Shown here: in pieces, positions 3,592 to 41,855 of the stretch
How positions within the stretch are numbered: position 1 is the first letter of the stretch
Layout: each line of letters opens with the position of its first letter
Assembly: GCA_016742095.1 (NCBI GenBank)
Contig: JACVCJ010000018.1
Span: 19,675 to 83,674, forward strand
Source: Bacteroidia bacterium
GTDB lineage: Bacteria; Bacteroidota; Bacteroidia; CAIKAF01
DNA length: 64,000 nucleotides
Reading direction: 5' to 3'
The notes under the pieces: generated by a model
The model's input: the letters and a program-made list of their open reading frames with translations, nothing else
Told to the model about the DNA's origin: nothing
The model's database searches: none
Position numbers and translations under genes: made by a program

Positions 3592-4908
3592 ATGAAAAAG
3601 ATCACTGTATTGTACGGCACAATCGCTGCTGTGTGTATGTTATTGTCGTGCCCCTCCTTCAGCCAGGCACAATGTTTTTCAGCACCCGTGGCCGGTGTCT
3701 GCAGCGGCGGAAACGGCACCCTGGGCAACAACGCAAATGTGAACGGCGGCCAAACCTATATTTACGGAGGTTCCGGCTCGGTAAGCAATGTAAACCTGAA
3801 CGGGGGTACCATACGTGTGTGTGGCACACTTACCATCTATTCGTTAAACTTCAACAGCGGACGCATCCTTGTGGAAAGCGGCGGCAGCCTTACCCTGATG
3901 AACGGGTTCAACATGAACGGTAATTCGATCATCGTTAACCGTGGACTGCTTGATATCCGCGGAAGTATTACCATGCAGAACAGCAGTAACTATGTGCTGA
4001 ACCTGGGCGCTTCGGCAGTGCTGCAGATGAACAATACCGGTACCCGCCTGGAACTGAACTCTTCCTCCGCCTATTTTTCCAATGAAGGCGTGGCCAATAT
4101 TTACGAACTGCGTATACAGTCGCAGGCTGCGGCCGGCAGCGTATGCCTGGGCAAAAGCAGCTGCACACAGACCCAGTACATCAACAACAACCGTGCAGGC
4201 GCCGTAACGGCCAACAGCCAGAAAGCGGCCATCAGCGTGGGACAGAATATTTACCTGAACCAGCCGCTCACCAGCGATACCGCCCTGGTCATCTGTCAGC
4301 GCAGCGGGAGCAGCAAAGGCGGTCCGGCGGCCTACGGTACTCCGAAGATCTATACCGACTGCCCCTCCTGCAGCGTGGCTCTGCCCGTATCACTCACTTC
4401 TTTTGAAGCCGGATACCAGGACCGCGATGTGGTCCTGACCTGGAGCACGGCCAGCGAAAGCAACAACGCCTACTTTACCATTGAACGCAGCAGCGATAAC
4501 AGCAACTGGGAAGAGATCGGCACCGTAAGCGGACAGGGAAATTCCAACGAAGTGGTGGAATACAGCTATACCGATGCCGCTGTACCTGCAGGTACCTGGT
4601 ACTATCGCCTGCGCCAGACCGACTACAACGGGCAGTCCGAGGTTTTTGCCCCCCTCAGCGTACTGGTACAGTCTGCTTCAGACGCGAAGTTCTCGGTATA
4701 TCCCGTGCCTTTTTCCACGCAGCTTACGATACAGTTCAGCGGCGAAGAGGACAGCCACCTGGTGGAAATACTCAACGGCGTGGGCCAGGTGATCAGCAGT
4801 ACGCGTATAACAGGCAATATGGCCCAGTTATCTACCGAAAACCTGCAGCCCGGCTTTTACTTTGTACGTTCCGGCGCCGAAACCCTGAAGGTGATCAAAA
4901 AGGGATAA
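3592..4908 (+). CDS. T9SS type A sorting domain-containing protein, Asn/Gly-rich beta-helix-like N-terminus (copy 1)
   Basis: Signal peptide; NVNGGQTYIYGGSG...NLNGGTIRVCGTLTI repeats; C-terminal Por_Secre_tail ending LQPGFYFVRSGAETLKVIKKG. Confidence 0.85.
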   Translation: MKKITVLYGTIAAVCMLLSCPSFSQAQCFSAPVAGVCSGGNGTLGNNANVNGGQTYIYGGSGSVSNVNLNGGTIRVCGTLTIYSLNFNSGRILVESGGSLTLMNGFNMNGNSIIVNRGLLDIRGSITMQNSSNYVLNLGASAVLQMNNTGTRLELNSSSAYFSNEGVANIYELRIQSQAAAGSVCLGKSSCTQTQYINNNRAGAVTANSQKAAISVGQNIYLNQPLTSDTALVICQRSGSSKGGPAAYGTPKIYTDCPSCSVALPVSLTSFEAGYQDRDVVLTWSTASESNNAYFTIERSSDNSNWEEIGTVSGQGNSNEVVEYSYTDAAVPAGTWYYRLRQTDYNGQSEVFAPLSVLVQSASDAKFSVYPVPFSTQLTIQFSGEEDSHLVEILNGVGQVISSTRITGNMAQLSTENLQPGFYFVRSGAETLKVIKKG

Positions 4909-5136
4909 GCTTAAGCATTTGTATATAAAGGATAAAAGATTCTTTTTTTATGTCCTGGCAAGACATTTCGCCTCTGCTTACGGCGCTCAAAATAACCGTA
5001 TTTTCTGTTAAGTGCTTTTATAATTCATAACTATGCCGTATCTTTTCTCAAAAAAACAGGTATGCGGTAAAACTATCGCGCCAGACCTGTTATTATTTGT
5101 ATGAAGATAGTTTAACCATTTAACCTTCATATACAT

Positions 5137-6456
5137 ATGAAAAAAACGGCCGTTTCGTATGTTAATGGCCTTTCTGTCACCTTTTATTTTTACCTGCTGC
5201 TGTATGGCCTTTCCCATGCACAGTGTATGTCCGGTCCGCCACCGGCCCCCTGCAGCGGGGGAAACGGCCCCCTGGTCAGCAATGCCAATGTAAACGGCGG
5301 CGAGACCTATTATTACAGTGGTTCCGGCACGATCAGCAACGTGAATATGAACGGTGGAACGATACAGGTCTGCGGTACACTGACCATCAATTCCTTCAAT
5401 TTCAACAACGGACAGGTGATCGTGGAAAGCGGGGGAAGTCTTACCATAACCAATGGCTTCAACATGAACGGCAGTTCCGGTCTTATCAACCGCGGCCTGC
5501 TTCATATCACGGGAAACGTGATCATGCAGAACGGCAACAACTTTATTATGAACCTCGGCAGTTCGGCATTGCTCCAGATCAACAGCGCAGGCACGCACCT
5601 GGAACTGGAGGCTGCCACCGACCATTTTGTCAACGAAGGTACCGCCGATATTTTTGACCTGTACATAGACCAGGTGAGCAGCGGCAACATCTGCCTGGCG
5701 CATAACAGCTGCCTGCAGGCCCAGAACATTCATAACAATGCCCTCAACCCGGTAACTGCCAGCGGGCAAACGGCTGCGATAAGCGTAGGACAGCAGATAT
5801 ACCTGAACCAGCCCCTGACCAATGATACCGCCTTAGTCGTCTGTATGTACCCCGGCAGCATCAAAGACGGCCCGGCCCCCTACGGTACAGCCCATGTATA
5901 CAACAATTGCCCCTCCTGCAGCTTTGCACTTCCGGCCTCGGTCGTCTCGTTCCTGGCATGGGTGAATGGCCGGGATGTGCATATAGAATGGACCACCGCC
6001 AGCGAAACCAATAACGCTTATTTTTCCATAGAGAGAAGCAGCAATAGTACAAACTGGGAAGAGATAAAGACCATAAACGGACTTGGACATTCGAACAAGA
6101 CCGCTCACTATACATATACCGATGCCGGCGTACCTGCGGGTACCTGGTACTATCGCCTGCGCCAGACCGACTACAACGGCCAGTTCGAGGTTTTTGCCCC
6201 ACTGAGCGTACTGGTACAGTCTGCTTCAGACGCAAAATTCTCGGTATACCCAGTGCCTTTTTCTACCCAGCTCAGCGTACAGTTCAGCGGCGAAGAGGAC
6301 AGCCACCTGGTAGAGATACTCAACGGTGTGGGCCAGGTGATCAGCAGTACCCGCGTAAACGGTAACCTGGCCCAGTTATCTACCGAAAACCTGCAACCCG
6401 GCTTCTATTTTGTACGTTCCGGCACCGAAACCCTGAAGGTGATCAAAAAAGGATAA
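5137..6456 (+). CDS. T9SS type A sorting domain-containing protein (tandem paralogue, copy 2)
   Basis: Full-length paralogue of 3592..4908; near-identical C-terminal region and 3' flank. Confidence 0.85.
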   Translation: MKKTAVSYVNGLSVTFYFYLLLYGLSHAQCMSGPPPAPCSGGNGPLVSNANVNGGETYYYSGSGTISNVNMNGGTIQVCGTLTINSFNFNNGQVIVESGGSLTITNGFNMNGSSGLINRGLLHITGNVIMQNGNNFIMNLGSSALLQINSAGTHLELEAATDHFVNEGTADIFDLYIDQVSSGNICLAHNSCLQAQNIHNNALNPVTASGQTAAISVGQQIYLNQPLTNDTALVVCMYPGSIKDGPAPYGTAHVYNNCPSCSFALPASVVSFLAWVNGRDVHIEWTTASETNNAYFSIERSSNSTNWEEIKTINGLGHSNKTAHYTYTDAGVPAGTWYYRLRQTDYNGQFEVFAPLSVLVQSASDAKFSVYPVPFSTQLSVQFSGEEDSHLVEILNGVGQVISSTRVNGNLAQLSTENLQPGFYFVRSGTETLKVIKKG

Positions 6457-37638: not shown

Positions 37639-38541
37639 ATGATCCTCAACCTGGAATGGCTGCGCACCTTTAAAGCGATCTACGAAGCAGGCACGCTCAC
37701 CGGCGCGGCCCAGGCCCTGTATATATCCCAGCCCGGCGTAAGCCTGCACCTGGGTTCACTGGAAGCCTATACCGGCTATAAACTGTTCGACCGTTCCGCG
37801 CGTAAAATGGTGCCCACGGAACGGGCCAAAGTGCTGTACAATTTTATCCTGGAACCCCTGGGCAAACTGGAAACGGCCGAGCAGCTGTTTCACCGCAGTT
37901 CCCGTACAGACCGGGCCACCATCAGTATCGGCATGTGTTTTGAGACCTTTCAGTTCACGCTGGAACAGCACATTTCGCAGCTGCCCTTCAATGTGATCAT
38001 TAAATTCGGCGAATACCCCGAAATGCAGCAGGACCTGGACAAAGGCCTGCTCGACCTGATCATAACCCCGCAGAAAGGCAACCAGAAGAACCTGGAATAC
38101 CAGCCTTTTTCCAGTGAAAAGATCGTACTCATCAGCGGCGGCAGAACGGATACCCGCAACCTGGAAAAACTGCTGAAAAAGGGTGCTACAGACGAGGCGC
38201 GCGCATGGCTGAAACAGCAGATCTGGTACAGTACGGCCGGCGATATGGAGAACCTGAAAAAGTTCTGGAAAACGAACTTTGGCGAACATCCTGATTTTAA
38301 GCCCAATTACATCGTGCCCAATATCTGCTCCATTGTACGCTGCCTGAGCGATGCGGAGGGTTTTGCCATTGTGCCCGATTTTCTCTGCCGCAGTGAGCTG
38401 GAGAACGGCAAAATAAAACAGGTGTGGGAAGGCAGTAACCCTATCGGGAACACCCTGTATTTCGGTACCCGCAAAAAGACCATGTATGCCCCGGAGATCG
38501 GCCGCATAAAGCAGATCTTTGAACAGGGCCCCTTAGCCTGA
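37639..38541 (+). CDS. LysR family transcriptional regulator
   Basis: MILNLEWLRTFKAIYEAGTLTGAAQALYISQPGVSLHLGSLEAYTGYKLFDRS; divergent from the MdaB-like gene. Confidence 0.9.
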   Translation: MILNLEWLRTFKAIYEAGTLTGAAQALYISQPGVSLHLGSLEAYTGYKLFDRSARKMVPTERAKVLYNFILEPLGKLETAEQLFHRSSRTDRATISIGMCFETFQFTLEQHISQLPFNVIIKFGEYPEMQQDLDKGLLDLIITPQKGNQKNLEYQPFSSEKIVLISGGRTDTRNLEKLLKKGATDEARAWLKQQIWYSTAGDMENLKKFWKTNFGEHPDFKPNYIVPNICSIVRCLSDAEGFAIVPDFLCRSELENGKIKQVWEGSNPIGNTLYFGTRKKTMYAPEIGRIKQIFEQGPLA

Positions 38542-38549
38542 ACAAAAAT

Positions 38550-38586
38550 TGTTTGAATTTCGCAAGTATGTGTTTGATTCGCGTAA
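38550..38586 (+). promoter_or_regulatory. AraC-type operator A (direct repeat, 21-bp period)
   Basis: tGTTTGAatttcgCAAgtatgtGTTTGAttcgcGTAA; followed 22 bp later by TACATTTG (38609-38616). Confidence 0.65.
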
Positions 38587-38660
38587 ATACCGGCCGGAGG
38601 ATACATCCTACATTTGTATCCCTGTAACAATGCCGTTACAGCACACAGAATATACACAAT

Positions 38661-38933
38661 ATGGAAGCGGAAAACAACTTTACAGGCATGTGGGTTACCG
38701 CCAACGGCTATATACGCCAGGAACTCCTGCCCGACGGACGTTACGACGAAACCCGGGGTACGCGTAAAAGCGCCTATACCGGGCGTTACCGCGTCACAGG
38801 CAATTACATTATGTACTGGGACGATATGGGCTTTACAGCCGACGGCAGCTTCATCGACGGAGATACCCTGCATCACGGAGGCTATATATTTTACCGGGAA
38901 AATAAACCGGCAACAGCCACCACCATTCAATGA
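38661..38933 (+). CDS. Atu4866-like small protein
   Basis: 90 aa: FTGMWVTANGYIRQELLPDGRYDETRGTRKSAYTGRYRVTGNYIMYWDDMGFTADGSFIDGDTLHHGGYIFYR. Confidence 0.8.
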   Translation: MEAENNFTGMWVTANGYIRQELLPDGRYDETRGTRKSAYTGRYRVTGNYIMYWDDMGFTADGSFIDGDTLHHGGYIFYRENKPATATTIQ

Positions 38934-38952
38934 TCTGCAATATCTTTAACCT

Positions 38953-39852
38953 ATGGCAAAGACGGAAACACTCGAAGATTTCTACAGACAAAAGTTCAAC
39001 TGGCTCCCGGAGAACCTCCAGAAGGACATCGGGCATTTTAACGTATTCCGTACCGAAGATTGCAGCGGGCCCGGCAAAGCGCCGGTACGTTATAGCCGCC
39101 GTGACTATTACAAGATAGCCCTGATCCGCGGCCGCAACGCCTATCACTATGCCGACCGCAGTATCGAGGTGAACGGCAGCACGCTCCTGTTCTTCAGTCC
39201 GCTGGTGCCTTATACCTTTGAACGGCTCACAGACGACAACAGCGGCTTTTTTTGTATATTCAAGGATGCCTTTTTCGATGAGCGTCTGCGCGGCGGCATA
39301 CGCGATATGCCTATGTTTCAGCCGGGCAGCAAGCCGGGCTATGAACTCAATGCCGAACAGGAAAAGGTAATTTCAGGCATCTTTGAAAAAATGCTGGAGG
39401 AGATCGGTTCCGACTATACCTATAAGTACGATCTGATCCGCAATTACGTGACGGAAATGATCCATTACGCGCTCAAAATGCAGCCGGCGGAGACCCTGTA
39501 CCATCACGCGGACGCCAATTCGCGCATTACGGCCGTGTTCACCGAACTGCTGGAACGACAGTTCCCCATCGAATCGCCCGAACAGCGTTTTTCCCTGCGT
39601 TCGGCCCGTGATTTTGCCGAAGAACTTTCGGTACACGTGAACCACCTGAACCGGGCCATACGCCTCACTACGGGTAAGACCACCAGCGCCCATATCTTCG
39701 AACGCCTGGCCACAGAGGCCAAAGCCCTGCTGCGCCACACCAACTGGAACATTTCGGAGATCAGCTACTGCCTTGGTTTCGAAGATCCCGCGCATTTCAA
39801 CCATTTCTTCAAGAAGCAGACCAGTCTTACACCGTCTGCCTTCCGGGCCTGA
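38953..39852 (+). CDS. AraC family transcriptional regulator
   Basis: 299 aa; C-terminal HTH FAEELSVHVNHLNRAIRLTTGKTTSAHIFERLATEAKALLRHTNWNISEISYCLGFEDPAHFNHFFKKQTSLTPSAFR. Confidence 0.92.
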   Translation: MAKTETLEDFYRQKFNWLPENLQKDIGHFNVFRTEDCSGPGKAPVRYSRRDYYKIALIRGRNAYHYADRSIEVNGSTLLFFSPLVPYTFERLTDDNSGFFCIFKDAFFDERLRGGIRDMPMFQPGSKPGYELNAEQEKVISGIFEKMLEEIGSDYTYKYDLIRNYVTEMIHYALKMQPAETLYHHADANSRITAVFTELLERQFPIESPEQRFSLRSARDFAEELSVHVNHLNRAIRLTTGKTTSAHIFERLATEAKALLRHTNWNISEISYCLGFEDPAHFNHFFKKQTSLTPSAFRA

Positions 39853-39862
39853 TCCGACTGCT

Positions 39863-40189
39863 TTGATACAGATCACGTCCATAGAGAACCTCCTGGTCAT
39901 ATGTCATTTACCGGCATATAAGGGCAAGGGAGCGGCCTGCTACCTGCACAGCCGCTTTTTTCCGCCCGGACTCTGGCAGCGCCTGCGTGCCCTGCCTTTT
40001 TTCAGTACGGCAGACGGCGCTTCGTACATGCTGAACAGCAAAGAAGACCGGGAAGCCGGCCTTATCTTCGGCAAAATGCAGCAGGAAGCCGCTTCCGATT
40101 ACCTTTTCACGGCCGATCTGCAACGCACCTACCTCATCGAACTGGTACACCTGCTGCTGAAAGTACACCAGAAACAACAACCGGCCTGA
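39863..40189 (+). pseudogene. truncated AraC-type sensor-domain fragment, no HTH
   Basis: FFPPGLWQRLRALPFFSTADGASYMLNSKEDREAGLIFGKMQQEAASDYLFTADLQRTYLIELVHLLLKVHQ is colinear with FFDERLRGGIRDMPMFQPGSKPGYELNAEQEKVISGIFEKMLEEIGSDYTYKYDLIRNYVTEMIHYALKMQ of the upstream AraC protein. Confidence 0.55.
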
Positions 40190-40199
40190 TCCGCATTCA

Positions 40200-40263
40200 A
40201 AAAAACGTATATCCATAAAAGGCACAACCGATGTGCCGGTAATATCCATGCATATACGTTTTA
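40200..40263. repeat. nested inverted repeat
   Basis: Outer arms AAAACGTATAT (40202-40212) / ATATACGTTTT (40252-40262); inner GGCAC (40221-40225) / GTGCC (40233-40237). Confidence 0.75.
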
Positions 40264-40278
40264 CAACGGACGGAATTT

Positions 40279-40315
40279 TGTTTGAATAATACAATTTTTC
40301 GTTTGAATGCTGTAA
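40279..40315 (+). promoter_or_regulatory. AraC-type operator B (direct repeat, 21-bp period)
   Basis: tGTTTGAataataCAAtttttcGTTTGAatgctGTAA; followed 22 bp later by TACCTTTG (40338-40345). Confidence 0.65.
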
Positions 40316-40391
40316 GTCGCGGCCCGGAAAGCCGCTCTACCTTTGTCCCATTCCATTATGTATAAAAACGATCCTTTAAACACGACAGATC

Positions 40392-41234
40392 ATGAAGAAC
40401 AACGTATGGTTCGTAACGGGCGCCTCGAAAGGACTGGGGCTGTCCCTCGTAAAAAAACTCCTGGACGCGGGTTACCGGGTAGCAGCCACATCCCGCAATC
40501 CCGAACGTCTGCAACGGTCCGCCGGAGCAGGGCCTGAGCGCTTCCTGGCCCTGGACATGCGTCTTACCGATGAAAACAGCGTAGCCGCTGCCGTACAACG
40601 TACCGTGGAACATTTCGGACGTATCGACGTAGTGGTGAACAATGCCGGTTACGGTATGATCGGCGCCCTGGAAGAACTTTCGGACGAAGAGGCCCGCGCC
40701 AATTTTGACGTGAACGTCTTCGGCAGCCTGAACGTCATCCGCAAAACCCTGCCCTACCTGCGTGCACAAGGCTCCGGGCATATTTTCAACGTAGCTTCCA
40801 TCGGCGGATTCAGCGGCGCCTTTCCCGGATTCGGCATTTACTGTGCCACCAAATTTGCCATGCATGGTTTTTCTGAAGCCCTGTCCGAAGAAGTAAAACC
40901 TTTTGGTATACAGGTAACGGTGGTGTCGCCGGGCTATTTCCGAACTGATTTTCTCAGCAGCAATTCCCTGGCAGTACCACAGCAGGAAATGGATGTATAC
41001 AAAAACGTACGTGAAACCCAGACCGTACACCAGAACAGCTACAACGGTCAGCAGCCGGGCGACCCCGACAAGGCTTCCGACGTAATGATCCGGGTGTCTG
41101 AAAGCAGCGACGCTCCCCTGCATCTTTTCCTCGGACAGGATGCCTATACCATGGCCGGACTGAAGATAGAGGCGATAAAGAAAGACCTGCGTTCGGTACA
41201 GGACCTCGCTACGGCCACCGGCTTTGAAATGTAG
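40392..41234 (+). CDS. SDR family oxidoreductase
   Basis: 280 aa; FVTGASKGLGLSLVKKL, VVNNAGYG, IYCATKFAMHGFSEAL. Confidence 0.92.
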   Translation: MKNNVWFVTGASKGLGLSLVKKLLDAGYRVAATSRNPERLQRSAGAGPERFLALDMRLTDENSVAAAVQRTVEHFGRIDVVVNNAGYGMIGALEELSDEEARANFDVNVFGSLNVIRKTLPYLRAQGSGHIFNVASIGGFSGAFPGFGIYCATKFAMHGFSEALSEEVKPFGIQVTVVSPGYFRTDFLSSNSLAVPQQEMDVYKNVRETQTVHQNSYNGQQPGDPDKASDVMIRVSESSDAPLHLFLGQDAYTMAGLKIEAIKKDLRSVQDLATATGFEM

Positions 41235-41272: not shown

Positions 41273-41836
41273 ATGGCAAAAAAGGTATATAAAAAAACGG
41301 ATTTCCCCGTGTGGGAGGTCCGGCGTTTCCTGGAACCGGGGCCTGTTGTCCTCGTAAGCTCGTCCTGGAAGGGAAAGTACAATATCATGAGCATGGGCTG
41401 GCATACGGTCCTTGAGTTTTCCCCTTCGCTCATCGGTTGTATGATCACCTCGGCCAATCACAGCTTCGGGATGATCGAAAAAAGCGGGGAATGCGTGATC
41501 AATATACCCACTACCGAACTCATGGACGAAGTGATCGGCATTGGCAACTGCAGCGGAAAAGACACGGATAAGTTCGAAACCTTCGGGCTCCGTCCGCAAA
41601 AGGCCTCTGTGGTAAGTGCCCCGCTCATTGCCGAATGTTATGCCTCGTTTGAATGCAAACTGGTGGAAAAGCGCCTGCTGAAGGCCTACAACTTCTTTAT
41701 TTTCGAAGTGGTAAAAGCCCATGCGGCCAAACGCCCGAAATATCCCGAAACGATGCATTACCGCGGGGACGGCGTGTTTATGATCTCCGGCAAAAATGTA
41801 TCGCGCCGCAGTAAATTCCGGCCGGAAAAGCTTTAA
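41273..41836 (+). CDS. flavin reductase family protein
   Basis: 187 aa; PVVLVSSSWKGKYNIMSMGWHTVLEFSPSLIGCMITSANHSFGMIEKSGECVINIP. Confidence 0.87.
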   Translation: MAKKVYKKTDFPVWEVRRFLEPGPVVLVSSSWKGKYNIMSMGWHTVLEFSPSLIGCMITSANHSFGMIEKSGECVINIPTTELMDEVIGIGNCSGKDTDKFETFGLRPQKASVVSAPLIAECYASFECKLVEKRLLKAYNFFIFEVVKAHAAKRPKYPETMHYRGDGVFMISGKNVSRRSKFRPEKL

Positions 41837-41855
41837 AAAACGTATATTCATAAAA

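Follow-up and report, generated by a model that had tools for sequence, protein, structure and literature searches.

A conserved tandem operator, probably read by an AraC-family activator, precedes carbonyl-reductase genes in Bacteroidota

Introduction

At araI1-araI2, the AraC protein of Escherichia coli occupies two tandem half-sites spaced by 21 bp, of which the one nearer the promoter lies at the edge of the core promoter. For the AraC-type HTCS regulators of Bacteroides, operators were predicted to be direct repeats spaced 21 bp on average, an arrangement interpreted as two monomers bound to a single DNA face (PMC3878776). In E. coli, the AraC-family activator YqhC is encoded beside an NAD(P)H carbonyl reductase gene and also controls an aldo/keto reductase (AKR) (PMC5297802). 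A different kind of control is exerted by Aar, an ANR protein whose attachment to the central linker of AraC proteins leaves them unable to bind DNA (PMC5570504).

Here we analyse a locus within a 64-kb stretch of Bacteroidota DNA (the window, taken as a whole). The locus resembles YqhC with its targets yqhD and dkgA/yqhE in having an AraC-type regulator, a carbonyl reductase neighbour and a probable AKR target; judged by sites and genes alone, the operator stands before carbonyl reductases including an AKR, as in a YqhC-type system. However, the neighbouring target is an SDR rather than the YqhD aldehyde reductase and the promoter is of the Bacteroidota type; the likeness is one of regulon logic. 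With the HTCS operators the locus shares the 21-bp direct-repeat geometry, but HTCS proteins are glycan sensor kinases with a periplasmic sensor, whereas the regulator here would be a soluble one-component protein governing reductases. The two tandem half-sites, 21 bp apart at a core promoter, also recall araI1-araI2; unlike in E. coli AraC, no looping site was seen, the half-site sequence differs and the regulator has no sensor domain recognised by Pfam. Systems of this kind are known. In the literature searched, however, we found no paper on the regulon, and both the regulator and the operator appear undescribed. An operator, a promoter spacing and a target list can now be specified for a widespread one-component regulator of Bacteroidota, a phylum rich in SDR and AKR genes, few of which have been linked to a signal.

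Two operators with the same architecture in one locus

Two near-identical sites at equal distance from two promoters had been noticed in the initial annotation. Both were recovered exactly, matching a 36-bp pattern without mismatch on the + strand. The features of the locus are as follows.

37639-38541: LysR-family gene (Pfam), directly upstream of operator A
38551-38586, + strand: operator A, tandem half-sites GTTTGAATTTCGCAA / GTTTGATTCGCGTAA, 21-bp period, exact pattern match
38609-38616, + strand: -7 box of promoter A, TACATTTG, 22 bp between operator and box
38661-38933, + strand: Atu4866-like protein, 90 aa (Pfam PF11512, E 5.9e-35; PDB 2jmb), first gene behind operator A
38953-39852, + strand: AraC-family regulator, 299 aa (Pfam HTH_18/HTH_AraC; co-occurrence of orthologues and operator)
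39863-40189, + strand: HTH-less small protein, 108 aa, putative TTG start, homologous to AraC residues 98-180
40202-40262, + strand: hairpin separating the araC operon from operator B, folding z -3.8
40280-40315, + strand: operator B, tandem half-sites GTTTGAATAATACAA / GTTTGAATGCTGTAA, exact pattern match
40338-40345, + strand: -7 box of promoter B, TACCTTTG, 22 bp between operator and box
40392-41234, + strand: SDR, 280 aa (Pfam adh_short), proposed target of operator B
41273-41836, + strand: flavin-reductase-like protein (Pfam PF01613)

Each site had been described as four spaced elements. Their positions hold, but the description is better reduced to a single half-site: the CAA at +12 is the same element as the TAA at +33, within the GTAA, one 21-bp period apart, and hence the operator is a tandem duplication of the 15-bp half-site GTTTGANNNNNNYAA, set twice head to tail with a 21-bp period. 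Both operators consist of two same-strand half-sites, two turns apart, adjoining a core promoter. In A and in B alike the first base of the -7-like box lies 23 bp beyond the end of the operator, as first reported. Flanks and spacers differ between the two. With the window left out of training, operators A and B scored 47.7 and 44.0 bits, respectively, in a PWM. No further match was found in the 64-kb window at up to 3 mismatches (0.05 expected from shuffles), and across the 3.7-Mb genome A and B are the sole exact matches as well as the sole matches at up to 2 mismatches.

Operator A lies upstream of the Atu4866-araC-small ORF genes and operator B upstream of the SDR and flavin reductase genes. 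The initial annotation had placed site A before the Atu4866-like gene and araC, which is correct, although a third, HTH-less gene that it did not report precedes operator B. The order that it gave behind site B also stands, but the flavin reductase is not conserved in the module, a single homologue (40%, on the opposite strand) being present in 80 related loci. In the window it is probably cotranscribed with the SDR gene. The SDR reached 293 bits against NCBIfam PRK06180, just under the cut-off of 298. Between the two operons, the hairpin is stable and terminator-like, without a long U run. A near-identical element, AAAACGTATATYCATAAAA, occurs at 40202-40220 and 41837-41855, the 3' ends of both operons, and has 14 matches genome-wide at up to 2 mismatches versus 1 for the control. 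The LysR gene has its own TACATTTG box and lies outside the conserved module. In the literature searched, the term Atu4866 occurred solely in a legume-rhizobium symbiosis study.

The operator is conserved beside AraC orthologues

Eighty related loci were fetched by similarity of the AraC protein alone (48-79% identical). They span Chitinophagaceae, Cytophagales, Sphingobacteriaceae and Flavobacteriaceae, the source genera including Chitinophaga, Niastella, Dyadobacter, Spirosoma, Runella, Chryseolinea, Hymenobacter, Mucilaginibacter, Pedobacter and Flavobacterium, among others. Using a PWM built without the tested locus, an operator of at least 24 bits was found in 80 of the 81 loci, window included; only the tested locus was left out and its kin were kept, and the 80 cases are not independent events. 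Nearly all competing unrelated positions scored below 10 bits in the same leave-one-out procedure. The lone exception among the 81 loci was L032, where no site was found beside an AraC orthologue of 73% identity. A class-wide protein search yielded nine more loci, eight with the operator. The expectation that orthologous upstream regions carry the repeats was thus borne out, also for loci found by protein alone.

At up to 3 mismatches, 95 sites were obtained versus 0 for the reversed pattern. A TAnnTTTG-like box followed 22 bp downstream in 68 of these and 21 bp downstream in 15 (together 83/95). In Bacteroidota, TAnnTTTG serves the main sigma factor as its -7 box (PMC9723704, PMC7366714). Since both this box and an AATT after the first GTTTGA lie outside the search pattern, their conservation is not circular. 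Across the 95 sites, the bases between operator and box hold almost no information, and no conserved -33 element was found there. The regulator is absent from 15 other genomes of the same family, and none of them has the exact site. Three of the 15 have one match each at 2 mismatches; only that of L004 exceeds 10 bits, reaching 24.7 bits without a spaced box. With its length of about 36 bp, the motif is specific enough for regulon assignment across the phylum. Upstream of araC in L080 (3878-3934), three half-sites possibly stand in tandem at 21-bp steps.

Gene arrangements and target genes

The first gene behind the site encodes an SDR in 57 cases, AraC in 28, an AKR in 6 and an ABM-like protein in 1, with a few others; for site A of the window, where the script chose an overlapping spurious ORF, direct reading gives Atu4866. 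Three gene arrangements share the one operator. By script, operator-SDR..araC was counted in 24 loci, operator-araC..operator-SDR, the type of the window, in 18, araC..operator-SDR in 13 and operator-araC in 10, the remainder including six AKR loci. The araC stop codon falls within the operator in 13 loci, again by script. At 4898-4933 of L020, L034, L035, L040, L086 and others, it lies in the first GTTTGA of the operator, such that coding end and site overlap.

A scan of the whole genome had been proposed as a check for unrelated matches. These are few, and a refined pattern added one site, at 7259-7294 of contig C62 (L149 4260-4295), with a PWM score of 29.4 bits. A gap of 22 bp separates it from CACCTTTG, behind which lies an AKR gene; the second half-site of this operator is weaker (GTTTCG...ACAA). 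The AKR is 60-61% identical to AKRs directly behind araC-linked operators in L049-L052 and L075-L076, and in Runella and Ferruginibacter relatives of it stand under the operator beside araC. By this comparison the regulon probably includes the unlinked AKR. The "local regulon" postulated initially is therefore drawn too narrowly.

As a loose pattern scan of 20 relatives gave control counts that were not negligible, only sites that had both a high PWM score and a -7 box at the proper spacing were considered. Unlinked strong sites in relatives lie mostly before SDRs and before AKRs of a second group, about 34% identical. Other genes behind such sites, named by eye, encode an apparent iron-sulfur oxidoreductase subunit and, in single cases, outer-membrane efflux-type and sodium/proton-antiporter-like proteins. 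AraC paralogues adjoin near-identical sites in L096, L097 and L102, and several regulators may share one operator motif in those relatives.

The AraC-family regulator

The protein encoded at 38953-39852 has the AraC/XylS two-HTH C-terminal domain (Pfam HTH_18, E 2.2e-17; HTH_AraC, E 9.4e-13), and its relatives in the PDB are SoxS, Rob and AraC. In its N-terminal half no Pfam sensor domain was found; the AF2 model is strand-rich there, with two helices. Among 43 homologues, numerous positions in the HTH region do not vary. Cys101 is at least 90% conserved and is a candidate for electrophile sensing, nothing more. At E <= 1e-90 the regulator occurs in 15 of 295 genomes of the class. Such a patchy spread and the 79% identity shared with a Chitinophaga protein point to possible horizontal transfer.

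Proposed mechanism and alternative readings

Very probably, A and B are operators of this AraC protein, which would act as a class II-type activator of its own operon, of the SDR gene and probably of the C62 AKR gene. The assessment builds on the conserved operator, its constant spacing to the promoter, its co-occurrence with the regulator and the nature of the target genes. That araC controls its own operon and the SDR gene had been suggested from the window; comparison of about 80 relatives strongly supports it. In the proposed mechanism, two AraC monomers would bind head to tail on one DNA face, each touching GTTTGA and, about one helical turn away, YAA. The half-sites would be two turns (21 bp) apart, and the downstream one would end 22 bp before the TAnnTTTG box. 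The bound protein would occupy the position of the -33 element, consistent with class II-type activation. Predicted targets are the operon of Atu4866, araC and the small HTH-less protein, the SDR gene (with flavin reductase) and, probably, the C62 AKR gene. We infer binding, activation rather than repression, autoregulation and an inducer, which may be a reactive carbonyl compound (aldehyde or ketone) or a different electrophile. Because the SDR and AKR target set resembles the YqhC regulon, we favour a role in carbonyl stress, the function probably being an inducible carbonyl-reductase response.

It is unlikely that the AraC protein binds both sites and represses, or that it has a ligand-dependent dual role as at araBAD/araC. 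Several AraC proteins are dual regulators, and an operator only 22 bp from the -7 box is near enough to block polymerase. However, no conserved -33 element lies between operator and box, and besides A and B the PWM listed no site in the window that could serve looping. The fixed place at the -33 edge on all target types would moreover correspond to the usual layout of an activator.

Still less probable is recognition of the sites by a regulator other than this AraC protein. One candidate is the LysR protein, whose gene immediately precedes site A, but a homologue is present in 0 of the 80 related loci, though the operator is kept. LysR sites are normally inverted, whereas those here are tandem. 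Owing to its absence from the related loci, LysR was rejected as the cognate regulator. A paralogue might be considered instead, given 19 first-look AraC-like candidates in the genome and the paralogues beside similar sites in relatives, but the AraC query has no second match at E <= 1e-30 among the proteins of this genome. Finally, although there are only two exact copies, at one locus, the probability is negligible that the pair arose by chance or that a promoter region was recently duplicated with no regulatory role: A and B do not resemble each other in their flanks or spacers, and the comparative data contradict such a reading, the architecture recurring over several orders of Bacteroidota.

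A small HTH-less protein encoded after araC

The ORF at 39863-40189 matches residues 98-180 of the AraC protein (BLASTP E 2e-14; hhalign 99.1%), a part comprising the last cupin strand and the helical dimerisation hairpin. Ten such proteins of about 106-116 aa, from the window and nine further loci, are encoded downstream of araC orthologues. They form one clade (support 100/99, with long branches and few columns) with 12 invariant columns, and dN/dS is about 0.05 for the closest pair, L015 and L016. On these grounds, a decayed araC remnant is disfavoured. The AF2 model shows strands and a two-helix hairpin at pLDDT 80. No credible Pfam or NCBIfam match was found, and a PDB fold search with the model returned nothing significant (RhaR regulatory domain, TM 0.47, E about 1).

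The small protein is, hypothetically, a feedback partner of the regulator. We tentatively propose, as a possible reading that we do not hold to be the likelier one, an undescribed family of short proteins that stem from the dimerisation region of the regulator, are encoded in the activated operon and form inactive heterodimers, giving negative feedback on the carbonyl-reductase regulon. If true, it would be a bacterial counterpart of the dimerisation-domain microproteins that control their parent transcription factors; with a piece of the regulator co-encoded, the feedback idea is directly testable. ANR proteins such as Aar are likewise small, devoid of a DNA-binding domain and linked to an AraC protein. 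The small protein here, in contrast, is a shortened paralogue that corresponds to the dimerisation region of its regulator, and ANR proteins are not known to be of that kind.

The L041 copy of the small HTH-less gene (4904-5225) carries a frameshift in the assembly. In L044 (4913-5467, Filimonas zeae), a 184-aa HTH-less copy of the AraC N-terminal domain, 42% identical, is encoded directly after araC and lies outside the clade of the smaller proteins.
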